Shown one piece after another: positions 21 to 38,399 of a stretch of DNA of 40,227 bases. Each line of letters opens with the position of its first letter. Position 1 is the stretch's first letter. Position numbers and translations under genes: made by a program. The DNA is taken from the IMG/VR virus record IMGVR_UViG_3300006754_000045, positions 1 through 40,227 of that record. One strand, written 5' to 3'. A model generated the notes under the pieces. The model was not told the DNA's origin, ran no database searches, and saw only the letters and a list, made by a program, of their open reading frames with translations. Source of the stretch: a virus.

Positions 21-3000
21 ATGAAAGAGTTGGGAATAACTAAAGTTCCTGAAATTGCTGAAAATAAAGCATATGTAGAGGCATTAATACGACAAAATGG
101 AGGCGAAATGGGAGCAGAAATTGTTTCTCCTTTACTTGCAGAAGTTTTAGATGCTAATAATGCTCATAAATTAAAGAAAAATCCTTTCTTTATGGACTTA
201 GCGGAATGGAAAAAGGCTGCTTGGAAAGAGAAAATTAAAAAAACTAAACAGCGTAATTCTTACGAGAATAGTACAAAAGCAGATGATCAAAATATAGTTG
301 AAGGAGATAAAGTGTGGGCTAGATTTGGACATTTAAAAGGTACATATGTAATAAAGAATGGAATAAAAGGTATAGAAAATAGTGATGGATTTCATCCTTT
401 AGATCAGGAAGATTTAAAATTTATGGAGAAACGAATTCTCAATAAAAATAAAGTAAAAGATATAGTTTCTGATTCAAATAAAAAAAGAACTAAAAATAAA
501 TTAAATAAAAACTCAAAAGACGAGGATGCAAAACCAACAAAGGATGCAGAGGATACACAAAATCAAACAAAGAAGCAATTAAAAGAAAATAAAGAAGAGG
601 AAGATATACTTGATAAAGCTCGTAAGGGAGATAAAGACGCTCAGAAGCAATTGGAGAAGTATGGTTTAAGTTGGCTATTAGAGCCTCAATATAGATTTAT
701 AGGTAAGAGCGAAGTAGATGCTTTATTAAATGGAGAAACTATAGAAGGTAAAACTCCATCATTTGGTGTTGATGTAACTAACGATAAGTCTGGTAAAACC
801 ACTCCTTCTACTACACAAGCATATAGAGTTACTTTCAGAACAGATAGAGGTCTTGATGATAAAAAAGAAGGATCTAGGATTCAATCGAAAAACGAGAACG
901 ATGGTTGGATTTCGGATGGTTATACTATAGAAGATGTTGAAAAAATAGAAAAACAAAATGAAGATGGAAGTTGGACAGGTATTTATGGAGATTCTCATTT
1001 AATTCAAGTTTCAGCAGCTCCAGTAGCTAAAAAGACTCAATATGCTTCTAAATTAAAAGAAATATTTGACAGAAGAAAACTTGCTACTAAAACCGATTTA
1101 AAAAATTCTCAACTTATAAAAGATATAAGAGTTGATAAAACTCAATCAAAGGATATTAAACCAAATAAAGCTGATAAGAATTTAGCAAGTATAATGCTTT
1201 ATGGTAAAACTTATAATGAATTACTAGATCAAGGTTTACCAGAAGAAGCATTAGAATCTGAAACATTGGCTTATAGAATTTTAAATGATTTACAATTTAA
1301 TATAAATGATTTACTTTTTTATGAAGAAATAGTACAAATAGATCCGTCAATTGCTGCTACTTTAACTACAAATGAAAACCCTGTTAAAGAATATTTTGAA
1401 AGTGATATATTTGAGCAGGCAGAACAACAAATGAGTGAAGAAGCTCCAGCAGCTCCAGCAGTTACAAAAGAAGGTGTGTCAAGAGTATTTAAAGATAATC
1501 CTGAGTTATCTAAACTTGGTACAGAAGAACAATACTCTTCTTATTTAGAAACTATATTTCCTAATAGTAAAGTTAAAGATATTGTTTATCATGCTGATAC
1601 TATTAAAGATAAAATATTTGATAAAACTAAAGGTTTATATGGAGTTTTTTATTTTGATAAAAAAGCAAGAAAACAACATGGTAATTTTGTTTATAGTGCT
1701 ATACTAAACATGAAATCTCCAGAATTAGTCCCTCCAGTAGTTTCTATGGATAACGTAGATAGAGATTCTGTAAAGCATTGGAAGAAAAGGGGAGCAGATT
1801 CAATATTAGGTAGTTTTGCAGCAGACAATATAGATACAGACATAGTAGGTAAAGAAGAACGAGTAAAATATTTTGATAAGGCATTTTCAGATTTACAAAA
1901 AAGAGGATATTTGAGAGAAGACACTTATGAATATATAGTGTTTGAACCAGAACAAATTCATGTACTAGGTTCTAAACAAGATATACAAGGGTTTACGAAG
2001 TTTGTATCTAAGCCAGAAGCTCCAGTAGCTCCAGATGGAGATTCTAAAACTTCTCCATCTTCTCTTGGGTTCGCCACACAGGCTCAACCAGATGCTTCTT
2101 ATAAACACCACCCTAATATACAAACACATCAGGATGATTCTTCTAATGTTGTAAACAAGTTCATAAATAATAGAAGTAGAAAGGATTTAAAAAACTTAAT
2201 TGTACAGATAATAGATATAGATACTAAGGGTATTCCGTCCTCTCTAAATAAGTTAATAGCTAAAAAAGAGCCTATTGATGAAAAATTGGATTTAGGATCT
2301 ACACAGCTGCGACAACAGTTTGGAGAAAACCTTAAAGTAAAAGTTAAACTTACAGATACTGTAACTAATAAATCTGTAGAGACATACTTATATAACATAG
2401 TTTCTACAAGTAGTTTACAGGAATCAGATAATATTGTTAAGATGTTTAAAAATATCCTAAATGCTAGGATGTTAAATGAGGGGCCTTTATATGGTGCTAT
2501 CTCTTATGTAGACTTTGGTAAGTTTAATAATATTCCTGGACAACAAGCTAAAATATCTAAAATATTTAAAAAAGATAAACCACATCTTGCTGTTAATGAT
2601 GGTAAAGGTATTACTGATGGAATTAATCCATATTATACTGTGTCAGAGAATGGTGAAGGTAAAGGTAGATTATATGCAATATTTAAGGATAAAGTAGATG
2701 GTACTATTATACCTATAAAGCTTAATAATCGTAATATAGATAAGAAAGAGGCTGAGGAACTGTGGGATATAGTAGTAAAATATTTAGATTCTACCACTGA
2801 AGATCCTTTTACATTTACTTCTTTATATAAAGACACAGGTTTAACTGCTTCTCAGTATATGAAATTAATAACTTTTGTAAATGACTCCGTAGATTTAGCT
2901 GAAGATAAGTTTGATTTAGAAAATTCTTCTGGAACTATGTTTGGATTTAAACCTGCTTCAGATACTAGATCTGCGCATTTTCAATTTGGGTCTTATACTG

Positions 3001-6000
3001 TTAATAAAAATATGCTTGATCAGAATAAAGCTTCAGTTAAAACAGCATTTTTAAACCATGTCATGGAGAATAAAAAAAGACAAGCACATGTACATGGTAT
3101 GAATAAATCTTTATTTGATATACCTTTAATATCAAATACAGGTATTGAGACATTCACCTTCTTAGGAAAAGAGTATTCAATAAAAGGTAAAGGTAAAAAT
3201 TATAATTTAGATTTTATAGAAGAGGATAGAGTTTTAACTACTGATGTTGAGGTTTTACCTAATGGTAGAGTTCAAAACAATAGAAGATTAGTAATGGATA
3301 TGTATACTTTTACTCGTAAACCAGAGGTTATTACAGATGATACAAGAAATAAAGAGCTTCCTGATAATTTAGAAGGTGTAAATACTGATCCTATAGATGA
3401 TGAAACATTTAATCCAGACTTATTTGATCAGCCTATGGAAATCACTCCAGAAAATAGTAATCCAAAAGAGGTATTAAATGAAAAAGATGCGAGAGCATTT
3501 TTAGATAGAGTTTTAGGAGGCGCTGTTCCAGTTAGAATAAAAAATAAATTAGTAAAAATAGGAGAGCAAGGAACAGAGGTTTATGGGGCTTTTTCAGATG
3601 GTGTTATACAGTTATCTAGGTTAGCGCCTAAAGGAATAGAATTTCATGAAGCATATCATGTTGTAGAAACAGCGTATTTAACTCCTGGAGAGATCGCTGC
3701 TTTAAATAGAGAGACTGTAGGAAAGCATGGTGAACCTACAAATGCTACTATAAAAAATATAAAAGCTAAGTATCCTAAATGGAAGTTAACATCTAAGGAG
3801 GCTAGGCAAATAGCATTAAGTGAGATTAGAGCCGAGGAATATAGATTATATGAATCGTCTAAAAATGACGAAAGGCTTACTTTTAAAACTTTAGGAAAAA
3901 GAATTATGCGTTTCTTCAGGGAACTAGTTGATTATATAGTTCCTATGTTCTCTACTAAAAATGCTGCTACTATTTATAGTAGAATATCACGAGGACATTA
4001 TAGAAGAAAATCTGTTGCAGAAAATATAGCAAAAGAACTTAGAGGGCTGAGGAATAACCTAAAAGATGAACAAGCGAATGCGGGACTTATACCTGGCACT
4101 CCAGCACTACTACCAAATGACAAGGCGTTTCAACAGAGGACATTAAAGATAATAGAAGCTTTGAACAACAAGATTGAGGAGTTAGAAGCTAAATTAGCAA
4201 AAGAAGAGGCTAATATAGGTAATAAAATACTCTCTATGTCTATAAAAGATTTCTCTAAATCCGTAGAAGAAACAGCATTAGAAGAAGCTGGTTTTAATAT
4301 AGAGGATAGAAGTAATATAGCTACTGCTCTTATTGAGGCTTTAATAACGAATAAAGGAGGCGTAAGGAATATAAAATCTCTTAATGATATTAAGATTAAT
4401 GATAATATTCTTAAAGGATACTTAAGTTTTATACAAAAAAGAAGAAAAGAAGCAGGTAATGTAAATGTTGCTGATAATCTTGAAATAATTAAAGATAATA
4501 TAAAACACTTTTATAATTCAGAAGATAATACAGGTTTAATACTTGATATATTAGAGCAGTACAAGATAAGAATAGAAACAGAGGAGGACGCTAAAGGGAA
4601 TAAAGATGTATCCCAAGCTATGAGTTCACATTTTGAGTATAGTGGTAAAGATAATGCTGGTACTAATACAAAAATTTTATTATCCTTTTTAGTTAAAAAG
4701 AATGAAAAAGGAGAAAATTTAGTTGATGATCGTACAGGTTTAAATAAAATAGAGCGTTTCTCTATAGTGTGGAATGGTCTTGAAAAAGGTCTTTCTGATA
4801 TTACTAGTTATGCAGAATATACTAAAACGGGGGAAGTTAAGATTAATCATGCTTTTGATCTTATGATGAATAAACTAGAAGAGATGTCTTCTTTAGTTCC
4901 TTTATATACAGGACTTGCAGCTAGAATAAAAGGATTAGAAGAGAATGATCAAATCCGATTCTTTAATGCTTTTTCTAAGGCTTCTATGAATTTTGTTACA
5001 GCTATCGTAGATAAATGGGCCTTTCAACAAGAAAAAGAGGGAGAAGGTATTGTTAATATAGAACAATCTAATACACGTTTTATTGATCCTGCTGTACAAG
5101 GTAGAAAATTCATGATCAGAAAAAGATGGTTAGAGAACTTAAAACAAAAAAACTTCTTTATATTAAAAGATGAGGAAGAGAATTTAGATATTGATACAAA
5201 AGTATTAGATACTATATTAGAGTCTTGGAACTCTATAAGTGCTGAATATAAAGCTGAACTTAAACGTATGACTAGAGATATGGATATTAAAGTATCTCAA
5301 GAATATAAGCAAAATTTAATAGAAGACTTAAAAGTTTCTGGTATTACTTTATCTGAAATGGCGTTAGATATATTATTGTCATCTGAAAATACAGAAAAGG
5401 AATCATTAACAACTTTATTTTTAGGAGCGGGCCGTAATTTTGGAGTGCAAGACATATATATTAGAACAGCTAAAAGTAAACGAACGGGTAGAAATCCTTA
5501 TGATTTTAAAAGTATAAAAGTTAGGAGTGAAAATGATGCTATAACTTTAGATTTAAATTTTACTGAAAATAATCCTTTTTCGTGGGCAAGTTCTGCTATA
5601 AATACATTAGCTGAAGCAGAAGCTTTAGTTGATGTTAGTTTAGGACAAAGTAATATATTAGGGCCTCAAGGGAAGTCTTATTGGTTATACTCATTAAATA
5701 ATTACTTATCAAAACAATCTAATAGATTTAATGCTTCAAAATATGAAAGAGACGTTTTATTAAAAGACAGATGGGCGAAAGATTCCAATTGGCTAAAAGA
5801 ATTAATTTCTGGAGCAAAATTAAAAATAAGAACTTTTAATAATCTTAAATTATCTAATTCTAAAGATGAGGGTACAGGAAATACTGATTTAACTCCTTCT
5901 CAAGAGCATGCTTTTAGAATAAATTCTACGTTATTTAATATAGCTAGAGCTAAGGGATTATTATCTCCTCCTACTATGGCAGATAAATCCGTATGGAATC

Positions 6001-9000
6001 TAATAGAAGGAATGAAAACATATGATATTTTCGAAAATTCTGATTCAGGTTTTATATTAAGACCCGATGGTAGTATGAGAGTGGGGCATAATATAGCTAG
6101 AAAATTTGCAATATATGCTGCTAGCGAAATATCTAGAGTACAATCTGTACATGAGGACCTATTCGGTCAAAATGCTTTAACTGACTCACAGCTTATAGAA
6201 TATTATCATTATATGATGGAGAAGGGTAAAAAGAATAGAAGAAAAGCGAATGGTCTTAAATTTATATTATTTCCTTCTTTAACTACTTCTATTTTAAAAG
6301 ATATTGGAGTTATGACTGAGGATGGTGTATTTTTAGATAGTTGGGATTCTGATCTAGTTATTCCAAAATTAACAGAATTTGTTAAACCTATATTAGAGAA
6401 AAGAATTCTTGCAGAAGTAAACTTTGCAGTAGAAAATGGGGTAATAACAAAGACAGTAAATAAAGATACTATAATCTATAAGAATAATACTATTGCAGAT
6501 AGAATTATAAAGTTACATGGAGAAAAATATAAAAATAAAGGGGCACAGTTTAGAAGTCATTATGGGATAGGATTGGCTTTGGCTAATTATACTGTAAATA
6601 ATATGATTTCTTTTATAGAAACTACAAAACTACTCTCGGGAGATCCTGCTTTTTATAAAAATTTAGATGACCTTTCTAAACGTATGCCCGAGCTAATTGC
6701 TCCAGGGCAAGACTTAAAAATAATTGAAGGACATGAATTATTTACAGTTGCTGTAATTAGAGATCAGATTCTACCTAAATCAAAATATTATGATAATTAT
6801 ATTAAGTTTTTAATTGAAAAGAAGGGGTATTCTAGAAAGGCAGCTAAAAAGATATTAAAACCATATTTAAATGTAAATGTAACTGATGCACAAGCTTATA
6901 TAACACTTCCAAGGTGGAGGTCATTAATGCGTATGTTAGGAAAATGGGATGACAAATATGATCCTACATATTTTAGATTATTAAATGGAGAAATTGTAGA
7001 TGATACTAACTTTGATATGTTACTAGCACAACCTTTAAAAGGCATGCATTATGAACTTAGAAAAGGATTGCAATCTAAAGATGGGGGAACTAATCTAAAT
7101 ATACCTACATATTTAAAGTATTCTCAAGCTGTACTTATACCTGCTGCTATTCATGGAACGGAACTTCAAAAGTTATTAGATACTATGAATAGAGAGGGAG
7201 TTGATGAAGTTGTATTTGAATCGGGTATAAAAGTAGGCGCTTTAAGTCCTGTAGATATTATGCAGGATCATCAAACAGGAGAGTTGTCATCTAGTATAGC
7301 TCTTAATAAGTTTGTTTTACGAAATGAAAATTGGAAGTTACAACAAGAATTAAGCCCTCATACAGAAAATGAATCCTTAGAAGGATCACAAATTAAGAAA
7401 AGTATACTATCTAATATAGACTTAAACGCTGATTATATTGTCCCTGCAAAGATAGTAGAGGGTGTACAAGAGACTAAACGTATTTCTGGATATGAATTAG
7501 TAAAAGATCTTCATGAAATTGATAGAGCTTTAAGTGATATTGAAAAAGATGCTATAATTAATGAATGGGGAATAAGTGTATCTAAAGTTGATGATGTTAC
7601 AGGACAAGTAATGTATAATATAGAAGATTATACTAAATTACATTCTATTTTATATTCATCTTTCAAGAGAAAAAAGAATACGCCCGCAAAATTATTAAAA
7701 TCTTTAGCTTTAAATGAAGCTGGATCAGGATTTGCAATAGACATAAGTTCACATCCTTTTATGAGGGATATAGAAAATATGATAGGAGCTATGATAACGG
7801 ATAGGCTTATAAAGTTAAAAATGCCTGGAGGATCTTTTATACAGCAAAGTAACTTTGGTATGCAGCGAATGGCGGCTTGGTCAGATCTTTCTATAAAAGA
7901 TCAAAGAGAATTAAGTAAACAAGTTAATGAAAAAGGTTTAAGTCCTTTATACTATAGTAAAAATGGCACAGTACGAGCTCAAATATTCTTACCGAGCTGG
8001 TTTAAAGAGAAACATGTTCCTGGGCATAAAAAAATGTCTAACGAGCAAATTAAAAAATATATAATAGATAAAAGGTTATTACGAGCAGTTGGGTATCGTA
8101 TTCCAACTCAAGGTATGAGTTCTATAGATTCTTTTGATATAGTAGGATTTTTACCTAAAAGTATGGGAGATACTGCTATTGTTTATGATGAATTTACATC
8201 TAAAACTGGTGCTGATTTTGATATAGATAAATTATATTTACTTTTACCTTCATATGCAGAATCTAAAAAGGGCTTATATTATGTAAATTATGATGGAACT
8301 AAAACAATAGAGGAGAATAGAAAAGCTAGAGGTAATAGAACTAATTTATTCAAAAAATCTTTACGAAATAGAAAATTAGAGTTATATCAATCTATATTAA
8401 GTAGTGTACATACTTTTGATCAAGTAATAAATCCACTTGATTCTGAAGATATAAAAAACAATGCTGCAGAGGTTAGATATTTAAAACTTAAACACACTCT
8501 TACAGATAAAGAAATACAAGAAATTGAAGCTTCGAAAGGAACTGAAGATTTCTATTCTACTGTAAGTGATATTCTTATATCTAAGAATGATCTAGAATGG
8601 TTCTCTCCTAGATACCAAATGGAAACTAAAGAAAAGTTTTTAGGTGGTAAATTTGGTGTTGGACAAGAAGCTAGACATCTATCTGATCATGGAATTTCAC
8701 AATGGTCATTTGAGAAAGAAGTAGAATCTTCTTATTTCTTAAAAGGAAGAGATATTGGATTAGGGCATATTACAGAATTAGGTAATACAGATTTATCTAA
8801 AATATTATCTACTAATGGTTTATTAATATCTGGAATTATGTCGGCTAGATTAGATGCTTATGTAGATATAGCTAAGGATCCATATATATTTTATTTAAAT
8901 AATAATGCTATAACGGCTAATACAGTGGCTTTAATGGATAGAGCAGGCGTTAATCCTGAATGGACCAATAAGTTTATGGGATTAAAAGTTATCACTGATT

Positions 9001-11978
9001 ATGTTAAAACTCAAAAATATATAAATTCTCCAGGAAGTCCTGGTGTTACTATTAATGGTAAGAGAATATATAAAGCAGAAGCTGTATTACGTCATCGTTT
9101 ATTACATGAATATTCAGCTTTGACTGGTACTTCAGTTGAAGATATTAAAATGACAACTTTATTGAAAGAAAATAAAAGAGTTGAATTATATGCTAGACGT
9201 AATAAAATATCCGTAGAGGATGCTATGAAAAAACATACAGAATCTCCTATAAGAATTAATGATATTATAGATATAAATAGATTAGAATACCTCTTAGATT
9301 CCACAAAGAGTAACAATGCTAATAAAATATATGATAATTTACTTCTCTTAGATTTATTTTTAAATCTTAAGAAGACGGCTACATCTCTTAACAAAGCAGT
9401 AACAGCGTCTAAAGCAGATACAGAAGGGGCTTCAGGGGGTATTATAGGTTCTTTTATATCTGATAATGCTATAGATGCCGTTATAGAAGAAGATTTAATA
9501 GGAGGTTTCGAAGGGAGATTTGACAATACAATGCTTGGAAAATATAAAGAGAATGGTCCAAATTTTATGTCTGCTCTTTTTGGAGATACTTTTTTAGCAG
9601 GTAGCACTCATTTTCAAAATATAATGAGAGATTTATCAGAAATAGTTGGTAATAAACGTATATTAGAAGATGAGGATCAATTTAGAAAAATATACTCAAG
9701 TTTTGTTTCTTATTTATTTTCTAAAACTCAATTTTATAAAAATATAGACCTAAAAGAAATTTTATATTCAAAAAATAATGTGGTTAATAGACTCTGGAGA
9801 TTTAAAAATGAAGAAAATAGTGTGATCAAAGATAATTTATTCATTAAATATTTATCTCCTGAATTTTCTAGCACTAAAAGAGGACACGATTACATAATTA
9901 CATCTGCAACAAGTAGAAAAGAAGGTATTGATAAAGATGCTCTTACAGAGGCTTGGAATGATTTATTGACACATGAAGACGCAAAAGTTAGAGACTTCGC
10001 AGAAGATCTTTATAAATTTTCTATAATATCTTCAGGATTTTCTAATACTTTATTTTCTTTTCATGAATTAGCTCCCTTACAGTATGAGTTAGATCAGGGA
10101 ATATATGATCAGTTTGGTTTACAAGTAAGTGAGCTTAAAAGTCACGGTAATTCTTTATTTGATGAAACTGAGATAAAAAAATTCTTAAGAACTCAAACAG
10201 GAAATACTGAATTAATTCCTGAAGCTTTTCCTAAAAAATTCTTACAAACTAAAATTAATGAAACTAAATTTAAATTTATATATCATATTGTACTTCCTTC
10301 GAATAGTGCTATGAGATATATAACTAAGGAGCCTAAAGAAGGGTTTAAGCACTTTGTTCCTTTTATAGAAGTTAATATTGGTAAACAGACGGTATTAATG
10401 GAGCACATTGGATATAATGAAAAGGGAGATGCTATTTATGAGCTTACTGAAAGATTAGGAACTTATAGTAAAGGGAGAAAAATATTTGAAAGTCCTACAG
10501 GAAGAACTCAAGTTAAAGAAAATCAAATAACACAGATATACAAAGGAAAGTTTGTAGGAAATTGGTTAGAACAACTTCGTAAACTGGGGTGGTTGAAAAA
10601 GCATGCTGAAAAAGTAGCTAAAAGTAATGATGGGAAAGGTTTTGTTCCACTAGAAATGGGAGATATGTATAATCATAATGATGAAACAGTTGATATAACA
10701 AAGGAAGAGGATTTTGGAAGTCAAATATCGTCCGAATTGGATCTTAATTTAATGTTGACCCCTGAATTTGTACAAGAAAATGAATTCCCAGTAATGGTAC
10801 AACGTCAGAAAGGGCCTAAATTAGTAGGAGTATTTAAGAGAATTGGTGATGCTATTAATGCGGGAATAGAACCTAAAGTAGCGATTAGAGCAGCACTTAA
10901 ATATAATTTATCTTTATTACAATATCTTAGAAATCTAGGACCTGAGACTTTATATTATGAAAACGAAAAAGGAAAATATATAGGATATGGAGAGGCCTGG
11001 GAAAGTTTTAAAAAGATGTTACATGAATCTGAAATAGATGATATATTTACAGATAGTTATGAAATTGAGGGTAAAGAATATTTCTTTCAATCAGAACCCT
11101 TAACTTATAGATTAGAAGTATTGGAAAGAAATTTAATAACTAATTCTGCACTCACACCAATATTTAATATAATATATGATTTAACTAAAGGTAAAAATAT
11201 AGAAATTGTATATACTGACCAGAAGATGGTTAAAAAATTAGAAGGGCCCCAAACTAGAGCCTTTTATGAAACAAATACTAATAGAATATTTTTACCTAGA
11301 AACATAACAGCTATAAGACCACATTCAAAAGTTGAGACTGAAGTAATGGTAACGTTACATGAGATTATACACCAATTAACTGCTAATTCTTTACATAAAA
11401 ATGTACATAAAAAATCTAAAGAAGAGCAATTATTTTTAAAAAGGGTTCAAAATTTATTAGATTTATATATACAGAATTTTGATACAAAGCGTGATAAAAT
11501 TCCTGAGCAATTAAGAAAAGCGATTGAAAAGTATGAGGGTATGATGGAAAATATGCTTCCTGAAGAGAAACGATCATTTAATTATGGAGAGTACGCAGAA
11601 GAGATGAATAATGTTTTGGATGAATTCCTAGCATATGGGCTAACATATAAGACAGTTATGAAACAATTAGAAGGAGTTAAGGTAATTGAAGAGGGCCCAT
11701 TATTTAAAGGAAATCTTTTGTCTAATATAATAGATGCTATTGTTGATTTATTCTCTTCTCTTGTCGATAAAGTCTTAGGAAAAAATGCTCAAGAATTATT
11801 GACAGTAGCGTTCACAGATTTTGTTAAAAATAGCGTATCTTTGGACCGAACTTTAGAACAACTTTATGATTTCTTAGGGAAAGATATATCTAAACTTAGT
11901 GAAACACAGTTAGAAATTAAAGATTGGTTGGAACAAGTGAGTGAAAAAACTAAAACTAGAGCAAAGAAAAAATGTTAG
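21..11978 (+). CDS. Giant virion RNA polymerase fusion protein (crAss-like), with ADP-ribosyltransferase-like and two zincin-like domains
   Basis: A 3985-residue protein. The motif ADFDIDKLY, with aspartates 2732, 2734 and 2736, matches the DxDxD metal-binding motif of the single-chain RNA polymerase of crAss-like phages, which is carried in the virion and ejected into the cell to transcribe early genes. Other parts seen: a Lys/Glu-rich linker at about 140-215; a segment at about 485-620 with VYH at 522-524 that resembles ADP-ribosyltransferase-like domains of phage polyvalent proteins; a zincin motif HEAYH at 1209-1213; a coiled coil at about 1370-1400; and a second zincin motif HEIIH at 3780-3784. 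It is far longer than the roughly 2200-residue polymerase of Cellulophaga phage phi14:2. The ATG at 21 follows AAAGGAAAAA, but the frame is open to the window edge, so the true start could be further upstream. Polymerase call is firm; the other domains are motif-level. Confidence 0.85.
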   Translation: MKELGITKVPEIAENKAYVEALIRQNGGEMGAEIVSPLLAEVLDANNAHKLKKNPFFMDLAEWKKAAWKEKIKKTKQRNSYENSTKADDQNIVEGDKVWARFGHLKGTYVIKNGIKGIENSDGFHPLDQEDLKFMEKRILNKNKVKDIVSDSNKKRTKNKLNKNSKDEDAKPTKDAEDTQNQTKKQLKENKEEEDILDKARKGDKDAQKQLEKYGLSWLLEPQYRFIGKSEVDALLNGETIEGKTPSFGVDVTNDKSGKTTPSTTQAYRVTFRTDRGLDDKKEGSRIQSKNENDGWISDGYTIEDVEKIEKQNEDGSWTGIYGDSHLIQVSAAPVAKKTQYASKLKEIFDRRKLATKTDLKNSQLIKDIRVDKTQSKDIKPNKADKNLASIMLYGKTYNELLDQGLPEEALESETLAYRILNDLQFNINDLLFYEEIVQIDPSIAATLTTNENPVKEYFESDIFEQAEQQMSEEAPAAPAVTKEGVSRVFKDNPELSKLGTEEQYSSYLETIFPNSKVKDIVYHADTIKDKIFDKTKGLYGVFYFDKKARKQHGNFVYSAILNMKSPELVPPVVSMDNVDRDSVKHWKKRGADSILGSFAADNIDTDIVGKEERVKYFDKAFSDLQKRGYLREDTYEYIVFEPEQIHVLGSKQDIQGFTKFVSKPEAPVAPDGDSKTSPSSLGFATQAQPDASYKHHPNIQTHQDDSSNVVNKFINNRSRKDLKNLIVQIIDIDTKGIPSSLNKLIAKKEPIDEKLDLGSTQLRQQFGENLKVKVKLTDTVTNKSVETYLYNIVSTSSLQESDNIVKMFKNILNARMLNEGPLYGAISYVDFGKFNNIPGQQAKISKIFKKDKPHLAVNDGKGITDGINPYYTVSENGEGKGRLYAIFKDKVDGTIIPIKLNNRNIDKKEAEELWDIVVKYLDSTTEDPFTFTSLYKDTGLTASQYMKLITFVNDSVDLAEDKFDLENSSGTMFGFKPASDTRSAHFQFGSYTVNKNMLDQNKASVKTAFLNHVMENKKRQAHVHGMNKSLFDIPLISNTGIETFTFLGKEYSIKGKGKNYNLDFIEEDRVLTTDVEVLPNGRVQNNRRLVMDMYTFTRKPEVITDDTRNKELPDNLEGVNTDPIDDETFNPDLFDQPMEITPENSNPKEVLNEKDARAFLDRVLGGAVPVRIKNKLVKIGEQGTEVYGAFSDGVIQLSRLAPKGIEFHEAYHVVETAYLTPGEIAALNRETVGKHGEPTNATIKNIKAKYPKWKLTSKEARQIALSEIRAEEYRLYESSKNDERLTFKTLGKRIMRFFRELVDYIVPMFSTKNAATIYSRISRGHYRRKSVAENIAKELRGLRNNLKDEQANAGLIPGTPALLPNDKAFQQRTLKIIEALNNKIEELEAKLAKEEANIGNKILSMSIKDFSKSVEETALEEAGFNIEDRSNIATALIEALITNKGGVRNIKSLNDIKINDNILKGYLSFIQKRRKEAGNVNVADNLEIIKDNIKHFYNSEDNTGLILDILEQYKIRIETEEDAKGNKDVSQAMSSHFEYSGKDNAGTNTKILLSFLVKKNEKGENLVDDRTGLNKIERFSIVWNGLEKGLSDITSYAEYTKTGEVKINHAFDLMMNKLEEMSSLVPLYTGLAARIKGLEENDQIRFFNAFSKASMNFVTAIVDKWAFQQEKEGEGIVNIEQSNTRFIDPAVQGRKFMIRKRWLENLKQKNFFILKDEEENLDIDTKVLDTILESWNSISAEYKAELKRMTRDMDIKVSQEYKQNLIEDLKVSGITLSEMALDILLSSENTEKESLTTLFLGAGRNFGVQDIYIRTAKSKRTGRNPYDFKSIKVRSENDAITLDLNFTENNPFSWASSAINTLAEAEALVDVSLGQSNILGPQGKSYWLYSLNNYLSKQSNRFNASKYERDVLLKDRWAKDSNWLKELISGAKLKIRTFNNLKLSNSKDEGTGNTDLTPSQEHAFRINSTLFNIARAKGLLSPPTMADKSVWNLIEGMKTYDIFENSDSGFILRPDGSMRVGHNIARKFAIYAASEISRVQSVHEDLFGQNALTDSQLIEYYHYMMEKGKKNRRKANGLKFILFPSLTTSILKDIGVMTEDGVFLDSWDSDLVIPKLTEFVKPILEKRILAEVNFAVENGVITKTVNKDTIIYKNNTIADRIIKLHGEKYKNKGAQFRSHYGIGLALANYTVNNMISFIETTKLLSGDPAFYKNLDDLSKRMPELIAPGQDLKIIEGHELFTVAVIRDQILPKSKYYDNYIKFLIEKKGYSRKAAKKILKPYLNVNVTDAQAYITLPRWRSLMRMLGKWDDKYDPTYFRLLNGEIVDDTNFDMLLAQPLKGMHYELRKGLQSKDGGTNLNIPTYLKYSQAVLIPAAIHGTELQKLLDTMNREGVDEVVFESGIKVGALSPVDIMQDHQTGELSSSIALNKFVLRNENWKLQQELSPHTENESLEGSQIKKSILSNIDLNADYIVPAKIVEGVQETKRISGYELVKDLHEIDRALSDIEKDAIINEWGISVSKVDDVTGQVMYNIEDYTKLHSILYSSFKRKKNTPAKLLKSLALNEAGSGFAIDISSHPFMRDIENMIGAMITDRLIKLKMPGGSFIQQSNFGMQRMAAWSDLSIKDQRELSKQVNEKGLSPLYYSKNGTVRAQIFLPSWFKEKHVPGHKKMSNEQIKKYIIDKRLLRAVGYRIPTQGMSSIDSFDIVGFLPKSMGDTAIVYDEFTSKTGADFDIDKLYLLLPSYAESKKGLYYVNYDGTKTIEENRKARGNRTNLFKKSLRNRKLELYQSILSSVHTFDQVINPLDSEDIKNNAAEVRYLKLKHTLTDKEIQEIEASKGTEDFYSTVSDILISKNDLEWFSPRYQMETKEKFLGGKFGVGQEARHLSDHGISQWSFEKEVESSYFLKGRDIGLGHITELGNTDLSKILSTNGLLISGIMSARLDAYVDIAKDPYIFYLNNNAITANTVALMDRAGVNPEWTNKFMGLKVITDYVKTQKYINSPGSPGVTINGKRIYKAEAVLRHRLLHEYSALTGTSVEDIKMTTLLKENKRVELYARRNKISVEDAMKKHTESPIRINDIIDINRLEYLLDSTKSNNANKIYDNLLLLDLFLNLKKTATSLNKAVTASKADTEGASGGIIGSFISDNAIDAVIEEDLIGGFEGRFDNTMLGKYKENGPNFMSALFGDTFLAGSTHFQNIMRDLSEIVGNKRILEDEDQFRKIYSSFVSYLFSKTQFYKNIDLKEILYSKNNVVNRLWRFKNEENSVIKDNLFIKYLSPEFSSTKRGHDYIITSATSRKEGIDKDALTEAWNDLLTHEDAKVRDFAEDLYKFSIISSGFSNTLFSFHELAPLQYELDQGIYDQFGLQVSELKSHGNSLFDETEIKKFLRTQTGNTELIPEAFPKKFLQTKINETKFKFIYHIVLPSNSAMRYITKEPKEGFKHFVPFIEVNIGKQTVLMEHIGYNEKGDAIYELTERLGTYSKGRKIFESPTGRTQVKENQITQIYKGKFVGNWLEQLRKLGWLKKHAEKVAKSNDGKGFVPLEMGDMYNHNDETVDITKEEDFGSQISSELDLNLMLTPEFVQENEFPVMVQRQKGPKLVGVFKRIGDAINAGIEPKVAIRAALKYNLSLLQYLRNLGPETLYYENEKGKYIGYGEAWESFKKMLHESEIDDIFTDSYEIEGKEYFFQSEPLTYRLEVLERNLITNSALTPIFNIIYDLTKGKNIEIVYTDQKMVKKLEGPQTRAFYETNTNRIFLPRNITAIRPHSKVETEVMVTLHEIIHQLTANSLHKNVHKKSKEEQLFLKRVQNLLDLYIQNFDTKRDKIPEQLRKAIEKYEGMMENMLPEEKRSFNYGEYAEEMNNVLDEFLAYGLTYKTVMKQLEGVKVIEEGPLFKGNLLSNIIDAIVDLFSSLVDKVLGKNAQELLTVAFTDFVKNSVSLDRTLEQLYDFLGKDISKLSETQLEIKDWLEQVSEKTKTRAKKKC

Positions 11979-11981
11979 ATT

Positions 11982-14900
11982 ATGGCGTGTGTATTTGTAG
12001 TTAAAGATCCTATTACAGGAGAAGAAGTAGATAGTCTTTTATATAAAGACTTGGTAGAATACTATAATTCTGAAGCTGAAGCAGAGTTAGCGTATAGAAG
12101 TGCTATAGATTCTCCTAAGTTTTTAACTGAGTTTGGAGATTATCATAAATCCCCTTCTAATTATTTGTTAACAGATGAAAAGGGTAAGCCTAGATTAGAT
12201 AAATATAATGAACCTTTTGCATCAGATGTTGTAAAATATTATGCTAATTGGGAATTATCTAAAAAATCTCATAATATTAATGAATTAAAAAATGTTACTA
12301 CCCCTGGTTTAGCTAGACTACAAAAGGTAGTAGATACTCTTACAACACGGTTACATAATTTAAGACGTGTGAAAAAAACAATTCATGAAAAAGAAAAGCT
12401 TAGAACACAAATTGGAAACCTATTAAAACAAATAGGAGAGGCTAACGAAATTAGAGGATTTGTAAATTATACACGGAATGCTGTTACAGAAGTAAACCAT
12501 TTATTAGATTCTTTAATAGAGCATGATAAGTCAGGAACTCCTTTTACAGCAGCGCAATTAGGGCATATGTTTAAAGTAATACAGTCTTATAGAGATGTAA
12601 ATAGAATATTAGGGGAGGCACAACAGTTAGAAGATTCTAAAGACTTAGAATTAGGTAAACAATATTACTTACCCAGTATAGTTATCAAAAATTTAAATAA
12701 TCTTAAAGATACTTTAAGTAAGTTAGAAAATGAATATCAAAAGCGTGCTCTAGAGTCTGTAGCGAATAGTATTATGGGGTCTGATTATCAAGCTAATGCT
12801 AGAGAATTTTATAGAAGATCATATGCAGAGACCGCGGAAGGAAAGAGACGAAAGGATGAAACTAATACTACTTATAGAAAACGTATACAAGAACATGTAG
12901 ATTTGAAAATGCAGGATAATTCTGTAATTATAGAAAAAGATGCTAAAGAACATATTATGCGTTTATTATCTGCAGGAATAGATATTACATATTTAGAAAG
13001 GTGGGCATTAAATGCTAGTAATACAACATCTCCTATACTTAGATCTTTAAATCACTTTATATTAAAAGCTGAGGACATCGCTAGATTGACATGGATTAAA
13101 TTTGCTGAAGAGGGAGATATTTTGTTTCGTAGATATAAAAAGCATATGAAATCTTTAGGAAAGAATGAAAATAACTTATCAGAGTTTTTTGAATTAATAG
13201 GTGAAAGATCATATGATAAAAATGGTAAGTTATCAAAAAAAGGTACTGGATGGGTAACACATAGATGGCATAGTGTTTGGCACACAGATTTAAAAACTAT
13301 AAGACGGGCTATGTCTCAAATAAGAAAGAAGGCTACTCGTAATGCTCTTGGACAAATAGATCCAACAGCATCTATTAAGGATAAAAAATTAAAAAGAGTA
13401 TATGATGCATTAAGAAGATTATACTATGTTAATAAAGATTATGATGCGGATCCTGCTATAGCTAGACAAAAAGAAAGAATTTCTGCGTCTTATGAAGGGG
13501 TTCGAGACTTAGAAAAAGCAATACTTAAAAAACAAAAAATAGTAGATACTTTAAAAAATTTAGAGAATCTTACAATGGAACAATCAAATAGAATACCTAA
13601 ATTAGAAAAGGAATTGTATGAAGCTTTAGAGCAAAGAGCAAAATTATTATCAGATGCTGTATCGCTTGAGAATAATTTAAGAGATGAATTCTTTAATTTT
13701 GAAGATATATATCATGTGCCTAATTTGAAAAGGATAAGAGCGGATAAGAAAGATCTACAAAGATTATTAAAGAGTGTTAATATTAGTTTTGATTTAGCAG
13801 TTTCTACTGAAATGTATAAGTCTCCTCAGTATGAAGAAATACATAATGAGAGAAAAAAAGATGCGCAAAGTCCTGTGTATGAATATTATAAGAAGTTTGT
13901 AATGAAAGGTATGAAAATGCGGGATAGTGTAAGACCAGAGGAATTTAAAACTGGATTTAAATACGATGCTATACGAAAAGTTCTTTGGGAGAGATTTGAT
14001 GATGTGCGACAAGGAGAGAAACCTATTAACAATGCTTGGAATAATTGGACTAAATCTTATTTAAAAGAGATATTTACATATACTAAAGGTAGAGATATAG
14101 AGAGTGGTGTACAGTTAAAAGCAATAGGAGAAGCTATAGATACTAAAATAGATTATGTTCCTATCTTTTTTACTAAACAAATAGATTTAAAAGATCAGCA
14201 AATGCATTTACATCAGAATTTATTAGTTGGTAATTTTGTATCAGTTAATTATAATGAAAAAAATAAGATTTTACCTTATATTGAAATGCTTATGTCTGTT
14301 GTTCAAAATAGAAAAATAATAAAAACTAAAGGGTTTCAAAGAATATTTAAAAACTTATCGGGTGTAGTAGCAGATGCTATTGGTAAAAGTCTTAAAAAAG
14401 AAAAGAAACAAGAATCTAATACATATGCTAATGCTATGGATCTAATAGCATCAAGAATTTTCGGAGAGACAGTTCAGGAGGCAGGTATTACATTACCATT
14501 ACCTTTTACAGAGTCTAGATTATCAATACGACAATTGTGGAATTTATGGTTAAGTGCTACAAGTACTGTATTATTATCTGCAAATTGGATGTCTACTATA
14601 AGTAATAGAGTTTTAGGAGGAACTTTACATCTTTCAGAAGCACTAGCTGGTGAATTTTTTACAACTAAAAGTATGCTTAATGGTCAGAAATATTATATAC
14701 AAGACGATCCACAAATAATTAATGATATTGGTAAGCCCTTTCCTATCTCTAAAACAAATTTATTAGGTATGTTATTTGATCCTTTAAATGATTATTCTAT
14801 GTATGGTCATCAATATGCATACAATAATAAAATGAAAGCTTTATTAAATACAAATACTTTACATGGTTTGAACAATATGGCAGAGCATGCTATGCATCAT

Positions 14901-16058
14901 GTTGTTATGTACACGGTCTTAGCCGAAACAAAAGTTCTAAACAAGGAGGGGGAGTATATCAATAAAAGCGGTAAAGGTATTACGAAGGATAGAACTAAAG
15001 CAATGGATTTAGCATCTATGTATAAAACTGAAAAAAGAGGAGAAGAAGGGCATAGAGGATTAAATTTAGATAACAGAGTTCATCAGATAGAATATAGAGT
15101 AGCAGAAACTTATTATAAAATGCCATTAGTGGGCAAGTTACATACTGATATGAGTATAAGAGCTGAACAAGAAGAAACTAATATGCATGCCATAATAAAA
15201 CTTACGCAACTAATTCAAAAAATAAATGAAATGGAGCATGGTGCGTATTCACAAAGAAACGCACCTCCTGGTAGAAGACACGCTTTATTTCAAGGATTAG
15301 AAACAATGCGAAAGTTCTTTCCTGTAGGTATAAAACATAGATTACAAGGAATTGGAACAACTCTTCTTAATTTATTTACTAATTTTCCAGAGTTTGCAAG
15401 AACTAGGGGAAATGCAGCTTTTTTTAAAGATTCTGCAAAGTATTCAAATGATTCTACTAAGATATATGATCCTATAACTAATAATTTAAAAGAAAGTCAT
15501 TATGTAACTACTTTAAAATATTTTGCTTTTTCTGCATATCATGGTATGAAAAAATTAGGACAATTGTGGGCACGAACTCATGATGACACATATCAAGTTA
15601 AGAAAGGAATTCTATCTATGAGTAAAGAAGAGTGGGGAAATATGTCTAAACATGAAAAAGCAAACATAGTAAGAACTTTTTATGAAATAGGATTAGCAAT
15701 GGTATTAATGCAGGCAGCTCACGCACTTAAAGATCGTGGAGAAGAAAAGTCAGATTATATGTTTGCTTTCTTTATGGCAAGATTATCTACTGAATTGCTG
15801 GCGTATTCTAATCCATGGGAAGCGGCTAGGATATTACAATCTCCTGCAACTACTACAACTTTTATTGAACGTATATGGACTTTTATGGAGCAATTAGGAG
15901 AAGATATCTGGGCTGGTGAGTGGGAAAGATATAAAGCTGGATCTAGAAAAGGACAAACAAAAACTTCTAAGAACCTTGGAGATATAGTTCCTTGGCACAA
16001 AGCAGTTAATCGTCATAAATATGTTGAAGATATTTTAAATTACCATTACAGGGAATAA
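11982..16058 (+). CDS. Large virion-associated (probably ejected cargo) protein
   Basis: A 1358-residue protein starting 3 bases after the stop of the polymerase gene, so co-transcribed and probably translated by reinitiation. It has no enzyme motif I recognise. It contains coiled-coil stretches at about 105-150 and 504-570, an otherwise charged helical character, and amphipathic or hydrophobic segments at about 850-880 and 1231-1255 (LAMVLMQAAHALK) that might contact membrane during DNA ejection. Crassvirales carry very large proteins next to the virion RNA polymerase, and structural work on phiCrAss001 showed such proteins as cargo inside the virion; this gene has the right position and size. 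The role is inferred from context only. Confidence 0.6.
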   Translation: MACVFVVKDPITGEEVDSLLYKDLVEYYNSEAEAELAYRSAIDSPKFLTEFGDYHKSPSNYLLTDEKGKPRLDKYNEPFASDVVKYYANWELSKKSHNINELKNVTTPGLARLQKVVDTLTTRLHNLRRVKKTIHEKEKLRTQIGNLLKQIGEANEIRGFVNYTRNAVTEVNHLLDSLIEHDKSGTPFTAAQLGHMFKVIQSYRDVNRILGEAQQLEDSKDLELGKQYYLPSIVIKNLNNLKDTLSKLENEYQKRALESVANSIMGSDYQANAREFYRRSYAETAEGKRRKDETNTTYRKRIQEHVDLKMQDNSVIIEKDAKEHIMRLLSAGIDITYLERWALNASNTTSPILRSLNHFILKAEDIARLTWIKFAEEGDILFRRYKKHMKSLGKNENNLSEFFELIGERSYDKNGKLSKKGTGWVTHRWHSVWHTDLKTIRRAMSQIRKKATRNALGQIDPTASIKDKKLKRVYDALRRLYYVNKDYDADPAIARQKERISASYEGVRDLEKAILKKQKIVDTLKNLENLTMEQSNRIPKLEKELYEALEQRAKLLSDAVSLENNLRDEFFNFEDIYHVPNLKRIRADKKDLQRLLKSVNISFDLAVSTEMYKSPQYEEIHNERKKDAQSPVYEYYKKFVMKGMKMRDSVRPEEFKTGFKYDAIRKVLWERFDDVRQGEKPINNAWNNWTKSYLKEIFTYTKGRDIESGVQLKAIGEAIDTKIDYVPIFFTKQIDLKDQQMHLHQNLLVGNFVSVNYNEKNKILPYIEMLMSVVQNRKIIKTKGFQRIFKNLSGVVADAIGKSLKKEKKQESNTYANAMDLIASRIFGETVQEAGITLPLPFTESRLSIRQLWNLWLSATSTVLLSANWMSTISNRVLGGTLHLSEALAGEFFTTKSMLNGQKYYIQDDPQIINDIGKPFPISKTNLLGMLFDPLNDYSMYGHQYAYNNKMKALLNTNTLHGLNNMAEHAMHHVVMYTVLAETKVLNKEGEYINKSGKGITKDRTKAMDLASMYKTEKRGEEGHRGLNLDNRVHQIEYRVAETYYKMPLVGKLHTDMSIRAEQEETNMHAIIKLTQLIQKINEMEHGAYSQRNAPPGRRHALFQGLETMRKFFPVGIKHRLQGIGTTLLNLFTNFPEFARTRGNAAFFKDSAKYSNDSTKIYDPITNNLKESHYVTTLKYFAFSAYHGMKKLGQLWARTHDDTYQVKKGILSMSKEEWGNMSKHEKANIVRTFYEIGLAMVLMQAAHALKDRGEEKSDYMFAFFMARLSTELLAYSNPWEAARILQSPATTTTFIERIWTFMEQLGEDIWAGEWERYKAGSRKGQTKTSKNLGDIVPWHKAVNRHKYVEDILNYHYRE

Positions 16059-32505: not shown

Positions 32506-32506
32506 T

Positions 32507-32770
32507 TTATTTTCTTATTGTATAACCTATTGAATCGGGATACATAATTATGTAGTCCATATCTTCTAAGTTATGTTTAATTGTAATTCGTGTTAATATA
32601 TCTCCTATTTCTTCATTTTTTTCACGTATTATAGTATCGTTAGCACAATCACTGTACCAATTAATACTATCTTCTGTGATTACATGTGTAGAATAACTAT
32701 ATTCTTGTATCAACTCATTTGAATTGATAGATATAGCTGTGATTAACATAAATATCTTAATTATTTCCAT
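32507..32770 (-). CDS. Small protein with hydrophobic N-terminus (possibly exported)
   Basis: An 87-residue protein starting MEIIKIFMLITAISINS, a short positively charged then hydrophobic N-terminus that could be a signal peptide or membrane anchor; the remainder (about 20-87) is acidic and soluble with one Cys. A longer frame reaches 32794, but the start at 32770 is chosen because a perfect AAAGGAGG lies 4 bases before it (32782-32775), the only such Shine-Dalgarno site I see in the minus-strand block. It overlaps the end of the zinc-ribbon gene, so the ribosome site lies in coding sequence. Function unknown. Confidence 0.6.
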   Translation of the reverse strand: MEIIKIFMLITAISINSNELIQEYSYSTHVITEDSINWYSDCANDTIIREKNEEIGDILTRITIKHNLEDMDYIIMYPDSIGYTIRK

Positions 32771-32963
32771 GGTCCCTCCTTTCATCAGCTTCATCTTCTA
32801 ATTTAGCTTCTTTAGCTGCTTCATTGAACTCATAGTCTTCAATAGGTTCCATGAAAAACTTTCCACAAAATTTAGATGCGCATTCATACCCATCATCATC
32901 TATATTCATTGTAATTTCATTGTATTCATCGTGTCCACAATGAGGACATACCATTTCTGCCAT
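32757..32963 (-). CDS. Small zinc-ribbon protein
   Basis: A 68-residue protein with a CPHCGHDEY motif at residues 6-14 and CASKFCGKFF at about 28-37: two Cys pairs (CxxC and CxxxxC) spaced as a zinc ribbon. The C-terminal half is strongly charged (EAAKEAKLEDEADERRD). Zinc-ribbon proteins of this size in phages may bind nucleic acid or act as transcription modulators; no specific role can be assigned. The 3' end overlaps the next gene by 14 bases. Confidence 0.72.
   Translation of the reverse strand: MAEMVCPHCGHDEYNEITMNIDDDGYECASKFCGKFFMEPIEDYEFNEAAKEAKLEDEADERRDHGNN
32775..32782 (-). promoter_or_regulatory. Consensus Shine-Dalgarno site deciding the start at 32770
   Basis: AAAGGAGG on the minus strand, 4 bases ahead of the ATG at 32770. 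Nearly all neighbouring genes have A/T-rich leaders without such a site, as usual for Bacteroidota, so this is exceptional here. Confidence 0.7.
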
Positions 32964-33058
32964 AATTTTATATTTTAAATGTTATTAAATAGAATAGAAT
33001 TGAGAAGGGATCTCAACCTCACAGGTTACGACAACTGTGTTCCAAAACAAGTATTATG

Positions 33059-33084
33059 ATATGTATTTTACTCATTCTATTCTT
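33059..33084. repeat. 26-bp direct repeat, copy downstream of the mini-tmRNA
   Basis: Identical to 33198-33223 over all 26 bases. Its last base is the final T of the plus-strand TGG that encodes the CCA end of the tRNA-like element, so it abuts the RNA 3' end. On the minus strand its GAATAGAATGAG can pair with CTCAATTCTATTC at about 33004-32992. Confidence 0.9.
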
Positions 33085-33197
33085 GGTGGACAAGGTGAGA
33101 TTCGAACTCACTTCCTGTAGAAATATATAGTGATAAGAACCACTATAGATTATTGTATAAATCGTGATACTAATACAGTCAAAGCCATCTCTTGCCC
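33084..33197 (-). ncRNA. Mini-tmRNA-like RNA: tmRNA-type tRNA-like domain without a messenger region
   Basis: 111 nt plus an encoded CCA. On the minus strand: acceptor GGGCAAG (33197-33191) pairs with CTTGTCC (33094-33088), with a G3-U70 pair and discriminator A, the alanine identity set. A 12-base D-region AGATGGCTTTGA follows, then helix 2 CTGTA/TACAG (33178-33174 with 33119-33115), linker GAA, T-arm GTGAG-TTCGAAT-CTCAC. The full tmRNA at 35158-35581 has exactly the same spacing (7, 12, 5, linker 3, 5-7-5) and D-region ACTTGGATTTGA. Where tmRNA has pseudoknots and tag frame, this RNA has 54 nt with hairpins TATAGTG/CACTATA (33147-33141 with 33132-33126) and GTAT/ATAC. No canonical anticodon arm exists, so it is not an ordinary tRNA. 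Function unknown. Confidence 0.75.
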
Positions 33198-33223
33198 ATA
33201 TGTATTTTACTCATTCTATTCTT
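33198..33223. repeat. 26-bp direct repeat, copy upstream of the mini-tmRNA
   Basis: Perfect copy of 33059-33084. It begins at the base next to the 5' end of the mini-tmRNA-like gene (33197), so the RNA gene is flanked immediately on both sides. This may be a processing signal or the footprint of insertion or duplication. Confidence 0.9.
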
Positions 33224-33241
33224 AATTGTATGCGTTGTAAA

Positions 33242-33778: not shown

Positions 33779-34109
33779 GTTATATATATTTTAAGTTAGT
33801 AAAAACACCAATTAGTCCAATACCTACGACTTGCACGCCAAGGTCCACTTTGTCGTAATTCCAAATATGGAATTTTGTACATCAGTTACGATCTGTCAGC
33901 CTATCTATCTTCGAATTAACATAAGTATAGGTATATTTGGATCTAGAAGTTGTGTCTCGAGACAGAATAGATAGTATTGTTAAGCCTCATCGCCACGTCA
34001 AGGCTTGGTGATTGATAAATGAGGTTCAGGACCTGCGTAGCTCTTCGTTATATGTGTCTGCGCAAATGCATTACTTATAATCGGTCGACTATGAGGTCCT
34101 TTTAGTTTC
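33779..34109 (-). ncRNA. Structured 330-nt leader or ncRNA
   Basis: Gene-free and folded on the minus strand. Helices visible: AGGACCT with AGGTCCT enclosing a TGCG/CGCA stem near the 5' end; AAGCCT with AGGCTT; CTATCTAT with ATAGATAG, enclosing the palindrome TGTCTCGAGACA; and TCGTAA with TTACGA enclosing hairpin AATTCCA-TATT-TGGAATT. It ends in TTTTTACTAACT about 20 bases before the next ATG. Could be a 5' UTR regulator or an independent RNA; no known class recognised. Confidence 0.55.
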
Positions 34110-35157: not shown

Positions 35158-35581
35158 TGGAGGTGGTGGGGTTCGAACCCACGTCCATACAGTATCCACA
35201 TAAATAGATGTACAAGCTTTTAAGTAATTGAATTAATTTTTAACCAAGGCTTCTGATAGTCATCAGACTCCATATCCGTAGCCGTTACACGCATTACTCA
35301 CGAATGTAACTTGAACAGATCAACCATCGCTATATCTAGCCGCCTGGTGAGATAAATCTCATTTGTATTAAGTAACAAAGTTTGATCATTAAAATACTTT
35401 TGTAGAAACTACCTAAGCAGCTACTGCAAGTTCTACACTTTGTAGTGGTAGAGCACTAGCGACAAAGCTGTTCCCTATTGGAAAGAACTTCGCGACTTTA
35501 GCATAACTATTTTCGCCAGTTAAAAAGCATCGTTGCTTGCCATTTATACTTCTCAAAGTATGTCAAATCCAAGTCACCCCC
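35158..35581 (-). ncRNA. ssrA: Transfer-messenger RNA (tmRNA), phage-encoded
   Basis: A 424-nt tmRNA. Acceptor GGGGGTG (35581-35575) pairs with CACCTCC (35165-35159), with the G3-U70 pair recognised by alanyl-tRNA synthetase and discriminator A at 35158; the CCA is not encoded (CTTTTT follows). D-region ACTTGGATTTGA, helix 2 CATAC/GTATG, linker GAC and T-arm GTGGG-TTCGAAC-CCCAC are all present. A PK1-like hairpin region precedes the resume codon GGC at 35517-35515. Later hairpins include CTGAT/ATCAG and GAGAT/ATCTC of the pseudoknot region. It rescues stalled ribosomes together with SmpB, which is not encoded here and must come from the host. The tag is unusually long (see 35413-35517). Confidence 0.95.
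35413..35517 (-). other. tmRNA tag reading frame, 34 codons
   Basis: From resume codon GGC to TAG. The tag begins GENSYAKVAKFF, whose first residues match the GEN-Y-A type of Bacteroidota tags, and ends SVELAVAA, a hydrophobic -AA ending like the degradation signal of E. coli tag ANDENYALAA. Usual tags are about 8-15 residues; this has 34. No stop occurs at the place expected after residue 9 or so. Confidence 0.8.
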
Positions 35582-37356: not shown

Positions 37357-38399
37357 GTTCTTAACCCTAGTAACTGAATACTAGGATTAAGATAAGAATA
37401 CAGATGACTACTCTGTGTAACAGGATTGAATGCTTCGACTTTCGAAGCTCCCATCTAAGTCTGCGAATAAGTTTAACTTTATTCATAATTATATAATGGG
37501 CTGAGATTACACCACTATACACATATCTTTCGTTGTTTAATTCCTGGTAGGGTTTACAACTTATCCACTATACTCTCGTATAGTAATATGCAATGACGGT
37601 TAGTTAGACTAACCACTTCTAATGTTATTAACTACTCACAATTTACTCGATCAAAATATAAAGCCGCTAAACTCTATATCTGTCTTTTAACTGTAAACAG
37701 AATCACCTTGAGGGATCATCCGCTCTGACTTACCGAAGTAGTCAGATTTAGTCATCTTTCGTCAATAACAAGTCAGCACTTTCTCTTTTGGTTAATGTTA
37801 CCCAGGGAATATCCCTAGGTTTCTCGTCTATTTTGAGCAAGTAGTGGCTGATCCAACAATTGCTTCGTCTCCTTTTGAGAGACAAAATACAATACTACTC
37901 ACGTATACCTTTCCATCGGTATGGTATTAGCCGTGATAATCCTATTCCCTAGGACTACCGTGCGTACTGATTTATACCACTAACTAGATTGGAATCTAGA
38001 TCGCAATTAAATCTACAGTTTGTCTTATTGATGTCACCATCTCACTACCTTAACCAAAAGATAGCACACATACTCTCAGGGATTCCCCCATTGATGCCGT
38101 GTGATATACTGCTTGCCTGGATTGACCAGAAATCTCATTGAGAATTCTAGGCAACATTAATAGCATAAACGTACTATTAATGTCTTTAGGTATATTGCTA
38201 TACTTATCGGGCCAGGCCCCTGTGCTTGATAGAGAAAACCCAAAAGAGGGATTTACAACTCTACACAATCCAAGGTGATATTCAAGTCAACACCTTGACG
38301 CTCTAAGCTTAATGTCTATTTATACTCGCTCAGACGAGTAACTGCTTTCTTTCTCCTAGTCAAGGATTGTGTTACTGATATTTATACTGTCTTAGCACC
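37357..38399 (-). ncRNA. Large structured non-coding RNA, about 1.04 kb, class unknown
   Basis: No credible gene in over a kilobase inside an otherwise packed block, and base composition less A-rich than the genes. Perfect local hairpins include 38155-38164/38175-38184 (about 10 bp), ACTATAC/GTATAGT near 37567-37584, GGTTAGT/ACTAACC near 37598-37614, CTAGAT/ATCTAG near 37984-37999, CTGACT/AGTCAG near 37725-37745, GTCTC/GAGAC near 37867-37883 and TACTCG/CGAGTA near 38322-38340. A 9-bp long-range stem ACACAATCC/GGATTGTGT (38263-38271 with 38364-38372) encloses two hairpins; TTGCCT/AGGCAA (about 38113-38155) closes a three-way junction. Scale and location near tmRNA resemble ornate large phage RNAs such as GOLLD and ROOL. 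Strand is inferred from neighbours. Confidence 0.7.

Follow-up and report, generated by a model that had tools for sequence, protein, structure and literature searches.

What can a phage do with a tmRNA that carries no message? The question is raised by a 114-nt element at positions 33084–33197 of the window analysed here, a stretch of viral DNA of 40,227 nt (IMG/VR record IMGVR_UViG_3300006754_000045), which a preliminary description, made from the sequence alone, had singled out as a miniature tmRNA-like RNA. Features of the window lie on its minus strand unless otherwise indicated.

Anatomy and family assignment of the mini RNA

Read from 5′ to 3′, the mini RNA gene consists of GGGCAAG, AGATGGCTTTGA, CTGTA, 54 nt of insert, TACAG, GAA, GTGAG TTCGAAT CTCAC, CTTGTCC and ACCA; it is unpermuted and in one piece, with the 5′ and 3′ acceptor strands in the usual order. 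All seven pairs of the acceptor form between GGGCAAG (33191–33197) and CTTGTCC (33094–33088), including G3–U70, and the five pairs of helix 2 (CTGTA, 33174–33178, with TACAG, 33115–33119; evident in the sequence and in the class alignment) and the five of the T-stem are likewise complete, giving 17 of 17 pairs. Between acceptor and helix 2 lies an unpaired D-region of tmRNA type (33179–33190), whose TGG.TT.GA is common to all members of the class described below, although it is partly set by the search pattern. Helix 2 is followed by the linker GAA (33112–33114), the GA of which completes a tandem G.A beside that helix, and by the T-arm (33095–33111), which is recognizable both in the sequence and in the alignment to RF00023. 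The 3′ end carries the discriminator A73 and an encoded CCA (33084–33087), and the mini RNA sequence therefore contains both alanine identity elements, G3–U70 and A73. Position, acceptor with G3–U70, 5-bp helix 2, T-arm and encoded CCA are thus all as first described. The acceptor also has C–G and A–U where most class members have G4–C69 and G5–C68.

The tmRNA pseudoknots and tag are replaced by the 54-nt insert (33120–33173; 24% G+C), which contains a 9-bp hairpin, TATAGTGGT TCTT ATCACTATA, at 33126–33147 (folded by itself, the insert has z −2.69). The minimum-free-energy fold of the whole mini RNA contains the three expected helices and is better than those of 196 of 200 shuffles (z −2.1). 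In its three frames the insert is without a tag of the usual type, and there is room for one of a few codons. A cryptic minimal tmRNA, with a very short tag such as TCA CGA TTT ATA CAA TAA, would agree with the stop that follows ...SRFIQ in frame 0 and with the tags of just two residues reported for some bacterial tmRNAs (PMC11915505). We consider this quite improbable, because the hydrophobic or Ala-rich ending of a tag and the pseudoknots are both absent, the insert is without a homologue, and the inserts of many other class members, of 4–30 nt, are too small for a usual tag.

The tmRNA family RF00023 was the best Rfam family for the mini RNA and the sole one reported in a permissive scan, with a score of 45.3 bits, narrowly below the gathering score of 47 (E 1.8e-16, as computed for a 1.2-kb stretch); the alignment runs over model positions 1–374, skipping the middle. 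The R1 model scored it at 59.2 bits, a value to be read knowing that its own training set includes the mini RNA sequence. A strict TLD-only pattern, that is, one for a tmRNA tRNA-like domain (TLD) by itself, matched once in the window and not at all in 100 shuffles, and the permuted two-piece tmRNA family RF04321 had zero matches in the window in the Rfam scan. The tRNA model (RF00005) yielded only 12.4 bits (E 0.34; gathering score 29 bits), and ARAGORN called neither a tRNA nor a tmRNA on the mini RNA; the canonical tRNA fold that would have refuted the preliminary description was thus not found. An ordinary or degenerate tRNA, perhaps bearing an intron, would account for the acceptor, T-arm and CCA, but the D-stem is absent, and this explanation, refuted at the sensitivity of RF00005 and ARAGORN, retains a negligible probability.

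TLD-only RNAs in other viral contigs

We scanned viral contigs with patterns in which D-region and T-arm stand 10–110 nt apart. Only four of the 50 matches to a first TLD pattern were true (the window's contig, L016, and L116, L133 and L155); the false ones were mostly tandem tRNAs, whose T-arm GGGTTCGAC imitates the D-region, or permuted tmRNAs (L154, L128, L130). The exact 16-base D-region pattern gave chance matches, except in a contig near-identical to the window. In a second scan, 51 of 55 matches had all seven acceptor pairs, with just two acceptor bases fixed by the pattern. Those retained, all with perfect acceptors, amount to 29 unique sequences from 55 loci: the window's, 26 others from viruses and two from bacteria (L213, L215). 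Candidates of Wenzhouxiangella type (L212, L214, L216, L217) were rejected, having unpaired acceptors, and the ARAGORN 'tmRNA' call on L161/L202 was judged spurious, since the tag was read through the TLD itself.

The TLD-only RNAs range from 63 to 140 nt, and their helix 2 arms are sometimes closed by a GNRA tetraloop. Most of the viral members tested score 43–79 bits with RF00023; L166 went unreported even at E 1e-6, the sole match in its record being a neighbouring tRNA (18.1 bits). In Blast searches, the mini RNA region retrieved only T-arm or low-complexity matches from phage records, and the collected mini RNAs, compared with 50,697 such records at a threshold of E 1e-9, retrieved none. 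Several members lie 4–8 nt from tRNA genes, and one sits exactly between tRNA-Tyr and tRNA-Met. On the bacterial side, L213 and L215 are both on the assembly contig CAMZDX010000002.1 together with a full tmRNA, with a further tmRNA elsewhere in the assembly. A genome from the same bacterial family contains a 42-bit match to the TLD model (L232; G118:C52:6195-6292).

Pair conservation was evaluated in 17 distinct TLD-only RNAs with equal spacing, the window's included; unequal D-region lengths made MAFFT misplace the acceptor, and the counts are restricted to rows of equal length. Paired cells made up 98.3% of the total, versus 72.6% in shuffles, and the covariation score was 0.712, versus 0.167 in shuffles (reached in 0 of 500); acceptor pairing was a criterion for inclusion, and the search patterns themselves fixed A73 as well as portions of the D-region and the T-arm. 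Double changes occurred at 11 of the 17 pairs, compensatory changes appeared in all three helices, and the covariation signal was lost when the structure was shifted by 1–3 columns. Helix 2, which except for its first base was not selected for, covaries at four of its five pairs. G3–U70 is invariant in all 17 aligned RNAs, U70 having been fixed by the pattern in the genome scan only.

The acceptor and helix 2 pairings are therefore kept in relatives through compensatory change, as the preliminary description had required of a real structure. Because the tmRNA model outscores the tRNA model, no canonical tRNA fold was found and these pairings are conserved, we conclude that the mini RNA is a complete tmRNA TLD without a normal messenger domain, and that such TLD-only RNAs form a class that recurs across viral contigs. 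Conservation of the acceptor and T-arm, the halves that tRNA enzymes use, could also be expected of an SmpB-independent sponge for alanyl-RNA or tRNA-processing factors (AlaRS, EF-Tu, an RNase or the CCA enzyme). A sponge, however, would not need the tmRNA-specific D-region and the tandem G.A beside helix 2, both of which are retained, and we regard this explanation as very improbable.

Genomic setting and the full-length tmRNA

About 2 kb upstream of the mini RNA, the window contains a full-length phage tmRNA (35155–35581; RF00023, 75.2 bits). Its tag frame, AKFFPIGNSFVASALPLQSVELAVAA followed by a stop (35413–35493), is readable in translation and encodes 26 residues ending in AVAA; the resume codon, by analogy, is probably GCG. 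In the relative L026 (DNA polymerase 80% identical), the 3′ end of this tmRNA recurs at the same place, where the end of the contig interrupts it. The two sequences are near-identical across the last ~70 bases and more diverged further in, a pattern as would be expected of a functional tmRNA. The mini RNA had been said to copy this tmRNA spacing for spacing, which is correct for the 12-nt D-region and the 3-nt linker but not for the CCA, because the full tmRNA ends in CCTCC-A-CTT and, unlike the mini RNA, does not encode it. Among the mini-bearing viral records searched, many of them fragments, only that of the window's phage has a full tmRNA beside the mini RNA.

Both RNAs and the neighbouring genes are on the minus strand, so that the mini RNA is co-directional with its neighbours. 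In both L003 and L026 the corresponding upstream gene runs straight into the DNA polymerase gene, from which we deduce a lineage-specific gain of ~735 bp in the window (32506–33241), comprising the mini RNA and two ORFs, one of 68 residues that is zinc-ribbon-like and one of 95 residues. Homologues of both ORFs, 84–86% identical, occur in L102 in a different order and place; there, a small tRNA-like hairpin element (L102:13174-13237, plus strand) lies upstream of the 95-aa and 68-aa homologues. Quite different sequences, which look structured, precede the 68-aa homologue in related phages.

The mini RNA is bordered at each end by one copy of an exact 26-nt direct repeat, present only twice within the window: the last base of copy 1 (33198–33223) adjoins the mature 5′ end (5′ G), and copy 2 (33059–33084) begins on the last A of CCA. 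Copy 1 contains TAAAAT 6 nt before the 5′ end of the mini RNA; the repeat was rejected as a sigma-70 promoter, since promoter-like sites in the region do not exceed chance level. The stretch right after the mini RNA (32985–33058), possibly a terminator of the transcript, has two small hairpins and then TTCTATTCTATT, which is complementary to the repeat.

Among close relatives of the window, the mini RNA was found only in the near-identical contig L002, which contains both RNAs. A search for the tmRNA family in 78 records with polymerase relatives (at least 55% identity) gave nothing above 8.6 bits; many of these records are fragments, and that of L026 does contain the truncated tmRNA end. A non-functional tmRNA remnant, originated by internal deletion or acquired with the insertion, would be compatible with the location of the mini RNA inside a recent, repeat-flanked insertion and with an Rfam score slightly under gathering, and one intact copy is no proof of selection in the window's lineage. 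Against this, all 17 pairs and the CCA are intact, the TLD is closer to the mini RNA of another phage (46 of 60 positions identical) than to the phage's own tmRNA (37 of 60), and the same architecture, with compensatory changes, appears in 26 other viral sequences; we therefore hold a remnant to be improbable.

The window shows other structured elements. A ~330-nt intergenic stretch (33779–34109) has an AGGACC...GGTCCT closing helix, with a fold no better than that of shuffles, and L026 has a similar closing helix at the matching intergenic place (L026:1260-1503) with otherwise little similarity. There are also a GOLLD RNA (37498–37902; 215.9 bits over the full model length) and a Pistol ribozyme (38264–38339; 69.4 bits), and another Pistol ribozyme occurs in the mini-bearing contig L133 (10932–11017). 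Two ORFs on the plus strand, of 3985 and 1358 aa (21–11978 and 11982–16058), had zero Pfam or PHROG matches. The initial assignment to the crAss-like phages was confirmed by none of the tools applied.

A proposed role in ribosome rescue

Phage tmRNAs, full-length and two-piece, are well known (PMC9004378), and the statement that no phage RNA like the mini RNA had been described has to be withdrawn: mycobacteriophage DS6A is listed as having a 'TLD only' tmRNA in two papers (PMC4131195; PMC11915505), both citing Mao et al. 2009. Compared by description only, the DS6A RNA is similar in being phage-encoded and containing little beyond the TLD, but it is grouped with forms of ~65 bp, whereas the mini RNA has 114 nt, with a hairpin-bearing insert of 54 nt, and shares its genome with a full tmRNA. 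Likewise, the message-less mitochondrial tmRNAs of jakobids and oomycetes (RF02544) are without tag frame and pseudoknots; they are, however, organelle-encoded and usually permuted, and the mini RNA is viral, unpermuted and one-piece. The CDS-less tmRNAs of ~65 bp from plastids of Mallomonadaceae (PMC11915505) are also TLDs lacking the coding part, although shorter and of plastid origin. With the standard one-piece tmRNA (RF00023), the mini RNA has in common the TLD structure, G3–U70, D-region, linker and T-arm, and it differs in the lack of the usual tag frame and of pseudoknots and in its size, 114 nt versus ~350–430.

We favour, with a probability only slightly above one half, that the mini RNA acts as a competitor of host tmRNA that depends on host SmpB. 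It would mature as tRNAs do, receive alanine from the host AlaRS by way of G3–U70 and A73, and associate with SmpB and EF-Tu of the host. A search of 26 viral records, the window's among them, gave no SmpB gene, and any SmpB partner would therefore be the host's. The charged mini RNA would then vie with tmRNA for SmpB and stalled ribosomes and, because it lacks the usual resume codon and tag frame, would be unable to finish trans-translation, so that, on balance, this process would be inhibited or retuned in the host during infection. We prefer this mechanism because a TLD-only-like molecule is reported to inhibit tmRNA in E. coli (PMC4131195; PMC11915505), strongly and irrespective of its being chargeable, perhaps by SmpB titration (PMC4131195). 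The decoy or inhibitor role initially put forward thus has a direct precedent, and its course in this phage, from transcription of the mini RNA through charging, SmpB and EF-Tu binding and A-site entry to inhibition, is what we infer. The main difficulty is that the phage's own full tmRNA would face equal competition, which would be resolved by separate timing or if host tmRNA were suppressed in favour of the phage's own. The departures from G4–C69 and G5–C68 in the acceptor, the restriction of the mini RNA to L002 among close relatives and the room for a very short tag in the insert also weigh against a competitor role.

The main rival is a tagless rescue, in which the charged TLD and SmpB would take the nascent chain onto alanine and the ribosome would be released without tagging. 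This has been suggested for the message-less mitochondrial tmRNAs, which are kept alongside a mitochondrion-targeted SmpB and are thought to be useful against incomplete mRNAs (PMC11915505), and the mini RNA retains the parts expected to be necessary for charging and A-site entry. Nevertheless, the phage is already equipped with a full-length tmRNA, the release step is not evident, and the TLD-only RNA was an inhibitor in E. coli in the account given in PMC4131195; we consider tagless rescue unlikely.

We have not found described either the commonness of TLD-only phage RNAs or the pairing of full and mini tmRNAs. In the tmRNA website papers cited here (PMC4131195, PMC11915505), a message-less phage tmRNA was a lone curiosity, that of DS6A; the 26 further viral forms, their compensatory evolution and their placement in tRNA clusters point to a recurrent viral strategy overlooked by ARAGORN. 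Tentatively, many environmental phages may carry a dedicated class of message-less mini-tmRNAs that counteract or retune ribosome rescue, and the window's phage might suppress host trans-translation and run its own. The inhibition or redirection of host ribosome rescue by phage RNA becomes a testable question, for which a phage with both a full and a reduced tmRNA is a natural two-part experiment.
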